From positions 1-43,506 of the forward strand of contig SIRU01000065.1 of NCBI GenBank assembly GCA_004366385.1: DNA of 43,506 bases, given 5' to 3'. Shown one piece after another: positions 6 to 1,501 of this stretch (position 1 is its first letter; each line of letters starts with the position of its first letter). The stretch is from Actinomycetota bacterium. Its GTDB lineage: Bacteria > Actinomycetota > Thermoleophilia > Gaiellales > Gaiellaceae. Both the position numbers and the translations under genes were made by a program. Under the pieces are notes generated by a model, which was given only the letters and a program-made list of their open reading frames with translations, was not told the DNA's origin and did not search any database.

Positions 6-95
6 TGGGGGAAGGGCGCCGGCCTCGAACCGGAACCGGCTCACGCCGGTCGACCGCTTCTCACGCGGTCGTCCCGCCTCGGGAGTCAACCCTCC
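6..95 (-). tRNA. class II tRNA-like gene, anticodon GAG, non-canonical cloverleaf
   Basis: Read on the minus strand this folds into a full cloverleaf. The anticodon arm has a 6-bp stem GACCGC/GCGGTC and the 7-nt loop GTGAGAA, giving anticodon GAG (Leu codons CUC/CUU). The long variable arm has a 6-bp stem and tetraloop GTGA. The T arm is CCGG-TTCGAGG-CCGG with a canonical T loop. The best fit with an encoded CCA (8..6) is a 9-bp acceptor (95-87 with 18-10, one U-C mismatch) plus a 4-bp T stem and a short D arm (TCCCG-AGG-CGGGA). A conventional 7/5 reading is possible but leaves a T-stem mismatch, extra bases before the D stem and CCA out of register. The discriminator is C, unlike normal Leu (A) or Ser (G), and base 37 is A. 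It may be a divergent tRNA-Leu, an allo-tRNA/Sec-like tRNA or a decaying tRNA. Confidence 0.55.
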
Positions 96-184
96 GCCGG
101 GATCCAAGGTAGGGCGTGGCCGGTACTCAGAAGAGCCCTCGTCACGAGGTCGGCACGCACTCGGCTCCGACTTGTGACGAAGCG

Positions 185-1501
185 CTAGCCGAGCAACGAC
201 AACGCCGCCGCGCGCAGCATCTCCACGCCGAGCTCGAGGTCGTCGACGTGCGTCCGCTCGTTCGCGGAGTGGATGAGCATCGTCGCGAGCTGCGTGTCCA
301 TCGCCTTCATCGGGAAGAAGCCGTACGCGACGGTGCCGTACGCCTCGCGCAGATAGTGGCTGTCGGTGAAGCCCGGACAGGCGACCGGCGCCAGCTTCGC
401 GCCCTCCTCGATGCCCTCCGTGAACTCGGCGAGCGCGTCCCAGAGCGGCGTCTCGATCGGGGAGCGCGTCCCGCCCGTCGCCTCCGTCCAGACGAGCTCG
501 TACTCGCCGTGGCCGAGCGCGGCGCGGAGCAACGCCTCAGCGTCCTCGGGCGTCTGCTCCGGGAGCAGCCGGCAGTCGACGACGACCTCGCAGAGCGCGG
601 GGATCACGTTCCGCTGGTCGGACGCGTGCGCCATGGTCGGGGAGAGCGTGAGCGAAAGGAGCGGCTCGACGAGCGCCGGCAGCAGCGGATGCACGTCAGC
701 CGCCCGCGCGAGCGCCTCCTCGACCGGCGGCGCCTCGCCGAGGATCGCCTCGAGGAAGCCGCGCGCCTCCGGGATCATCTCCCGCGGCGGCACGTACGAG
801 CCGAGGACGTCGACGTAGCGCGCCGCCTTCACGAGCGCGTTGTCCGCGATCCCGGGCATGGAGCCGTGCCCGCTCCGCCCGTGCACGCGCAAGGTGAACG
901 GCGCGGACATCTTCTCCGCGGTCGCGCAGACGTACACCGGACTCCCGCCGAGCTCGAGCCGCTGGCCGCCACCCTCGTTGATCGCGTAGTCGCAGCGCGC
1001 CGCGTCCGGGTGAGCCTCCACGAGCCACACGAGCCCGTACCCGTCGCTCCCGCCCACCTCCTCGTCCGCAACCGAGAGGTAGACGAGGTCGCCCGACGGC
1101 TGGAAGCCCTCACGGACGAGCGAGGCGAACGCCACCGCGGAGGCCGCGGCCTGGTCCTTCATGTCGAGCGCGCCGCGCCCCCACACCTCGCCGTCGACGA
1201 GGTCACCGGACCACGGGCCCCGCTCCCACTCCGCGGGATCGGCGAGGACGGTGTCCGTGTGGGAGAGGAACGCGAGCGAAGGCCCGTCGCCGCCCTTCAC
1301 CCGCGCCACGACGTTCGGGCGGTCCGGGTCTCGGCCGAGGAGGTCGGCCTCGATCCCGTTCAGCGCGAAGTACTCGTGCAGGAGCCGCGCCGCGCGGATC
1401 TCGTTCCCGGGCGGGTTGACGGTGTTCACGCGCAGGAGCTCCTGGAGGAGCACGGTCGCCTCGTCGCGAAGCGACGTGCGCGGCTCGGTCTCAGCCTTCA
1501 C
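185..1501 (-). CDS. M20-family metallo-amidohydrolase (ArgE/DapE-like)
   Basis: A 438-residue zinc-dependent hydrolase of the acetylornithine deacetylase/succinyl-diaminopimelate desuccinylase family, which cleaves amide bonds of N-acylated amino acids or peptides. Visible motifs in family order are LSHTDTV (first zinc ligand His and catalytic Asp), GRGALDMK (bridging Asp) and DEEVGG (catalytic Glu and ligand). A dimerisation lid domain follows around HGRSGHGSMPG, and the last His lies in LIHSANERTH. The GTG start overlaps the 3' end of the upstream kynA by 11 bp, so the two are probably co-transcribed and translationally coupled. Substrate cannot be read from sequence. The link to kynA makes a kynurenine-pathway acyl compound possible but unproven. 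Length is normal for the family. Confidence 0.88.
   Translation of the reverse strand: MKAETEPRTSLRDEATVLLQELLRVNTVNPPGNEIRAARLLHEYFALNGIEADLLGRDPDRPNVVARVKGGDGPSLAFLSHTDTVLADPAEWERGPWSGDLVDGEVWGRGALDMKDQAAASAVAFASLVREGFQPSGDLVYLSVADEEVGGSDGYGLVWLVEAHPDAARCDYAINEGGGQRLELGGSPVYVCATAEKMSAPFTLRVHGRSGHGSMPGIADNALVKAARYVDVLGSYVPPREMIPEARGFLEAILGEAPPVEEALARAADVHPLLPALVEPLLSLTLSPTMAHASDQRNVIPALCEVVVDCRLLPEQTPEDAEALLRAALGHGEYELVWTEATGGTRSPIETPLWDALAEFTEGIEEGAKLAPVACPGFTDSHYLREAYGTVAYGFFPMKAMDTQLATMLIHSANERTHVDDLELGVEMLRAAALSLLG

Follow-up and report, generated by a model that had tools for sequence, protein, structure and literature searches.

The contig SIRU01000065.1 of an Actinomycetota bacterium of the family Gaiellaceae (43,506 nucleotides [nt], the whole stretch being called here the window) carries close to its first position, on the minus strand, an unusual transfer RNA (tRNA)-like gene, RNA1. 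This gene belongs to a family of allo-tRNA-type genes in which, almost certainly, the tRNA is coupled to an antisense unit in a two-unit architecture: a second unit of the same strand, RNA2, contains a segment complementary to the anticodon arm of its own RNA1, and this segment changes together with the anticodon arm from locus to locus. Allo-tRNAs and RNA-RNA toxin-antitoxin pairs are each known already; what appears to be new is an allo-tRNA coupled to an antisense of its own.

Coupling of the tRNA-like gene to an antisense unit

Positions 1–133 of the window (minus strand) overlap the start of another contig of the same 2.73-Mb genome (G000:C41, 1–132, locus L076), and the two sequences differ by one base in a run of C near window positions 6–11. 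Therefore, the DNA located 3' of the tRNA can be read in C41. The copy in C41 was rejected as a second genomic copy, being the same locus at overlapping contig ends, one base apart. Both contigs should be joined, and the 3' end of the tRNA in the window is uncertain by one base. The continuation in C41 (CGCATACGTACAATGGCGATGCTTCTCACGCGGTCGCGGGCAACTGCCCGCTTCA, approximately positions 141–225) contains a -10-like TACAAT, the antisense segment, a GC hairpin and a GC-rich terminator-like hairpin. The complement to the tRNA's own anticodon arm comprises 15 nt if exact and 17 nt with one G·U pair. In the G000 genome, the exact 15-nt target is present in RNA1 alone and its complement in RNA2 alone, and there is no site with one mismatch. 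The initial annotation had read the gene as an unusual tRNA; the allo-tRNA part of that reading stands, but the co-evolving antisense RNA past the contig end, which alters how the gene is to be understood, had been missed.

The same arrangement is present in 26 of 31 family loci, in which the strand of the tRNA carries, downstream of it, a -10 box, 11–20 nt complementary to the anticodon arm of that tRNA, a GC hairpin and a terminator. Taking at each locus the best complement within 300 nt, the summed antisense score is 417, versus a mean of 258 and a maximum of 311 in 20,000 permutations of the partners in which the best complement was picked likewise for non-cognate partners; since the loci are related, these permutations overstate independence. 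The pairing keeps a constant register with respect to G34: 100% of the loci are paired from -2 to +2, and 85–100% of them at the positions from -8 to +5. Altogether, 362 of 390 positions are paired (the partner-shuffled maximum is 295), with up to seven letter combinations per paired position. For instance, at position 36, where the anticodon varies, pairing is present in 26/26 loci and involves five pair types.

Matched changes can also be followed at single sites. At an orthologous site, in which the module lies between an RNase H-like gene and a tRNA-Gly gene, G000 has the anticodon GAC, whereas G034 and G035 have GAU, and RNA2 has changed to match. At a second syntenic site the anticodon is GAA in G294 and G378 and GAG in G316, and the antisense is matched each time. 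A tandem duplication of the module is seen in G142, where, by eye, each copy has its own matching antisense.

RNA2 is probably a separate transcript from its own promoter, to judge from sequence signals. A TANNNT motif is found at most 14 nt upstream of the antisense segment in 23 of the 26 loci, versus 1.5% of background windows, and the segment is followed by the GC hairpin and then by the terminator-like hairpin. The mean gain in co-folding is 13.1 kcal/mol for cognate pairs and 3.2 kcal/mol for mismatched partners.

Some loci depart from this layout. Long-form loci, such as those of G142, G213b, G295, C61 and G035 (L120, L137, L125, L130 and L149), have a linker of 40–120 nt with a stable hairpin between the tRNA and RNA2. 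In the loops of these hairpins, a further 5–9 nt, fewer than in the main segment, are complementary to the same anticodon loop and might form a kissing loop that masks the tRNA; this complementarity is weak (total of 128 versus a permuted mean of 111.8, about 1 in 10,000). In G037:C48 (L079), the first terminator is closely followed by another RNA2-like unit (GGGTGTCAGCCGGTCGCGGGCATTGCCCGC), which has a -10 box of its own but no tRNA of its own beside it. At G039:C158:25633-25705 (L145), an upstream copy of the module has degenerated: its tRNA has no 3' acceptor strand and the RNA2-like unit is mismatched to it.

Fold and distribution of the RNA1 family

The tRNA-like gene of the window is called by ARAGORN and is matched at positions 6–96 by two family covariance models, R1 (built from five homologues of the family search; 91.8 bits) and R2 (built from 32 members; 68.5 bits). 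Although the folding z-score of the window sequence by itself is -1.1, which alone is insufficient, the fold goes far beyond chance because the family model finds relatives and these covary. Among the 32 aligned members, 97.3% of the paired cells are indeed paired, two-sided changes occur in 20 of 26 pairs, and the covariation score is 0.543 versus 0.192 after shuffling. The helix of the variable arm is paired in 100% of cells, with two-sided changes in all 5 pairs. The acceptor has 8 of 8 base pairs (bp) formed in most members and the 4-bp T stem is 97.7% paired. The initial annotation, which had proposed a tRNA-like gene with four arms, a canonical T loop, a very small D loop, a 6-bp anticodon stem and a C at position 73, was confirmed in all these elements.

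It had also proposed a 9/4 acceptor–T geometry. The 4-bp T stem held, but not the 9-bp acceptor, as the fold shared with the 31 relatives is 8/4. The window acceptor (GGAGGGU(U)G/CGCCCUUC) forms 7 of 8 pairs as aligned and 8 bp if one U is bulged, and it includes a G2·U71 wobble. The ninth pair of the earlier reading corresponds to C-1:G73 in relatives. However, C-1 precedes 47 of 59 ordinary tRNA-Ser genes of the carrier and related genomes and, since it is equally common there, C-1:G73 is no evidence of a 9-bp stem; a 9-bp acceptor was consequently dropped. C73 and G2·U71 occur in the window copy alone among the 32 aligned members, so that this copy is the most derived of the family at the acceptor end.

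The relatives found with R1, at up to 102 bits, come from congeners as well as from other families of the class; the top scores of R1 are its own seed sequences, and new relatives reach 88 bits. They include Conexibacter arvalis (DSM 23288, with the module in NZ_JACHNU010000013.1), Conexibacter sp. CPCC 205762, and metagenome-assembled genomes (MAGs) of Solirubrobacterales and other Thermoleophilia. Clear members (55 bits or more with R2) are present in 22 of 399 sampled genomes of the Thermoleophilia, a class of soil bacteria, and in 6 of 11 genomes of the genus, and the carriers belong to four families of the class. Among 396 genomes sampled across the phylum, no match outside the class exceeded 53.5 bits, and the top ones examined are ordinary tRNA-Ser genes. 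A phage or plasmid origin was also discarded: blastn gave no match to the window copy, and three viral pattern matches are phage tRNA-Ser genes without antisense.

Serine-type ends and non-serine anticodons

The ends of the family members read (C-1)GGAG...CUCC-G73; the acceptor has 8 bp and the T stem 4 bp, and the variable arm is long. G1-C72 and A3-U70 are nearly invariant and G73 is present in 29 of the 31 members with acceptors; the GGA start and G73 match the tRNA-Ser of the same and related genomes. Serine is the most likely amino acid of RNA1, since GGAG/CUCC, G73 and a long variable arm prevail in the family and are also those of tRNA-Ser in the same genomes. The anticodons of the 32 members are GAU (9), GAC (8), GAG (7), GCC (6) and GAA (2), never a serine anticodon. 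G34 and A37 are invariant, and U33 is present in 27 of 32 members. Three features of allo-tRNAs are found in the family, as had been suspected for the window gene: a 12-bp acceptor branch (8/4 or 9/3), here 8/4; identity elements for the seryl-tRNA synthetase (SerRS), though the window copy has C73 and G2·U71; and a non-serine anticodon.

The gene is neither a tRNA-Leu nor a tRNA-Sec, as the initial annotation had held. The Rfam tRNA model RF00005 does not match it even at E ≤ 10, while it finds 47 canonical tRNAs in G000, isoacceptors for the other amino acids included. A canonical tRNA-Leu(GAG), whose presence it had been advised to check, is located at C37:10683-10768, and a true tRNA-Sec(UCA) at C53:7995-8086 (68.9 bits in the RF01852 scan). 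With a full canonical set and both of these genes elsewhere, the window gene is therefore an extra, odd tRNA. A canonical tRNA-Leu was further rejected by position 73, which is C here and G in the family versus A in tRNA-Leu, and the relatives proved to be of the allo-tRNA type and not ordinary tRNA-Leu genes. Against tRNA-Sec, the anticodon is GAG instead of UCA and the scanned members are below the RF01852 cut-off. Matches to the L31 leader (24.6 bits, cut-off 35) and, in locus L131, to istR (27.6 bits, cut-off 45) are sub-threshold and were taken as chance.

Proposed function and alternative explanations

RNA1 would be a serine-type allo-tRNA with a non-serine anticodon and the first RNA of a two-RNA module. 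SerRS would charge it, and free RNA1 would put serine at common C-ending codons of Ile, Val, Leu, Phe or Gly (AUC, GUC, CUC, UUC or GGC), with harmful consequences; these five codons represent 23% of the codons in five window genes. RNA2 would be transcribed in the same direction from a promoter of its own immediately downstream; through its 5' 11–20 nt it would pair with the anticodon loop and the 5' side of the stem, and it would neutralise RNA1 by invading, opening and covering the anticodon stem-loop. The pair could act as an RNA-only toxin-antitoxin, type VIII-like, or as a tightly leashed missense module. That a translation-competent tRNA is under antisense control is a proposition that we judge to be evenly balanced. 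The more specific one, in which the toxin would be an intact, serine-charged missense tRNA, the antitoxin an antisense RNA acting on its anticodon arm, and specificity would diversify by co-substitution, is offered tentatively.

Several observations weigh against this proposal. Five members have C33 instead of U33, which may weaken decoding, and the window copy, with C73 and G2·U71, may be impaired. One module site is conserved across three genomes. Moreover, 5 of the 31 copies have no detectable antisense. Three of these five carry a damaged acceptor or a base other than G73, as expected if the antisense were needed only while the tRNA works; the other two (G294b/c) have intact acceptors and do not fit.

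It is unlikely that RNA2 is a trans-acting regulatory small RNA (sRNA) and RNA1 a tRNA-shaped sponge whose decoding is irrelevant. RNA2 does have the usual layout of an sRNA, with a free 5' seed, a hairpin and a terminator, and the additional RNA2-like unit of G037:C48 has no RNA1 of its own. However, the 15-nt seed of the window locus lacks any other target in G000 with up to one mismatch, and sites with two mismatches are near the reversed-pattern control. In addition, the seed is free to change from one orthologous locus to another, whereas G73 and the other arms of the tRNA (acceptor, D, T and variable) are maintained, something that a mere sponge would not require.

A regulated missense tRNA that helps its host by phenotypic mistranslation, with RNA2 as a stress-responsive brake and not an antitoxin, is likewise doubtful. 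The anatomy would be the same, the anticodons are limited to GAN and GCC, and one site is kept across three congeners. However, the occurrence of the family is patchy, in the 22 of 399 genomes of the class mentioned above; it was not found in 5 of the 11 congeners, including the single-contig G038, and the regulatory context is not conserved.

Pseudo-tRNAs with non-translational roles exist, and RNA1 might be a charged tRNA-like RNA of this kind, for instance an amino-acid donor to cell-wall or lipid transferases, whose level is set by RNA2. Although C33 in five members would suit such a role, we consider it improbable, as neither a transferase nor another conserved neighbour was found at the loci and constraints from decoding are suggested by an anticodon that varies while G34 and A37 are invariant and U33 predominates. 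It is more improbable still that the complement acts at the DNA level, as an inverted repeat for integration or recombination, and not as antisense RNA. The complement does form an inverted repeat, and tRNA anticodon regions are common integrase targets; however, there is a single inverted copy in a fixed register, with a -10 box just upstream and a hairpin and terminator downstream, and neither an integrase nor another common protein occurs at the loci. A decaying tRNA-Ser or tRNA-Leu pseudogene, or chance, is hardly tenable for the family, given the compensatory changes in 20/26 pairs, the conservation of a locus-specific antisense and the spread over four families of the class. For the window copy, decay had been envisaged from the start, and C73 and G2·U71, unique to it, and the bulged U point that way, but its anticodon arm still matches the antisense partner perfectly.

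Relation to known systems

Like the family described here, allo-tRNAs have a 12-bp (8/4) acceptor branch, serine identity elements, a long variable arm and varied non-serine anticodons (PMC7609411). Those of S. bohemicum with serine identity insert serine at leucine codons in E. coli, and other, untranslatable ones have been linked, as a guess, to toxin-antitoxin systems or transposons (PMC7609411). The hosts named in that review, which covers Mukai et al. 2017, are Clostridia, Proteobacteria and Acidobacteria, and antisense RNA is unmentioned in it (PMC7609411). In contrast, the present family is found in Thermoleophilia (Actinomycetota), uses only GAN or GCC anticodons and has a co-evolving antisense attached. 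An allo-tRNA with a dedicated, co-evolving antisense to its anticodon arm was not found in the literature, of which our coverage was partial, and Mukai et al. 2017 might mention downstream complements.

Type VIII toxin-antitoxin systems (SdsR-RyeA, CreTA) resemble the module, as proposed here, in that there would be two RNAs per locus, one of them silencing a harmful RNA (PMC10767807), and CreT of CreTA also acts on translation, by sequestering a tRNA. They differ in that the candidate toxin of the module is itself a tRNA, the pairing takes place at the anticodon arm, the two RNAs lie on a single strand, and no Cascade is involved. With tRNA-Sec (RF01852) the family shares a small D loop, a long variable arm and an acceptor of more than 7 bp, and some members score just below its cut-off (45.9 versus 47); unlike tRNA-Sec, the anticodon is never UCA. 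Phage tRNA-Ser genes have the same 8/4 acceptor/T arrangement with GGAG..CUCC and G73, but their anticodon loop is of the serine type (GCU) and their flanks contain no antisense unit.

Two further sets of sequences were observed. The IMG/VR viral contigs L160–L162 carry such phage-borne 8/4 tRNA-Ser(GCU) genes, some adjoining other tRNA-like sequences and none with an antisense unit. A Chloroflexota MAG (OY282448.1, L159) has at 315–408 (minus strand) an 8/4 serine-like allo-tRNA whose anticodon loop reads CTTAGAC (probably UAG). Its flanks, of which about 300 nt downstream were covered, contain no antisense, so that this case does not extend the coupling to allo-tRNAs in general.

To our knowledge, allo-tRNAs have had no explained natural role so far. 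A dedicated antisense that tracks the anticodon arm through its changes points to this arm as the working part of the molecule, with an activity that has to be restrained. The module allows a direct test of whether missense tRNAs are maintained in bacteria as toxins or as regulated mistranslation devices, and could provide synthetic biology with natural, mutually specific tRNA/antisense switches. The search rule, a tRNA followed by the complement of its own anticodon arm, can be used elsewhere.

Genomic surroundings

The features of the window locus are listed in Table 1; names of neighbour genes come from reading their translations.

Table 1. Coordinates of RNA1 and adjacent features in the window.
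Feature	Positions	Strand	Basis
RNA1, allo-tRNA-like gene, anticodon GAG	8..95	minus	ARAGORN; family covariance models; covariation in 32 relatives
Anticodon GAG of RNA1	60..62	minus	family anticodons GAU/GAC/GAG/GCC/GAA
RNA1 anticodon-arm segment with reverse complement at C41 ~152-168	55..71	minus	predicted 5' end of RNA2
Long variable arm ACCGGC/GCCGGU, GUGA loop	35..50	minus	ARAGORN and family covariation
TACCTT, candidate -10 box of RNA1	106..111	minus	TANNNT 13-17 nt upstream of RNA1 match in 19/31 loci
Upstream neighbour, M20-type peptidase	185..1501	minus	reading of translation

When the flanking proteins were compared across loci, none was common except at orthologous sites and, therefore, there is no protein partner. 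A T-box or other cis-regulation of a downstream gene was rejected as well, as unrelated sites share no neighbours. Homologues of the M20 peptidase are present in eight congeners, and none of those whose downstream sequence was read has the module there. The next aligned gene is zwf-like in most; at that place, G000 has about 2 kb of other DNA, which includes the module.
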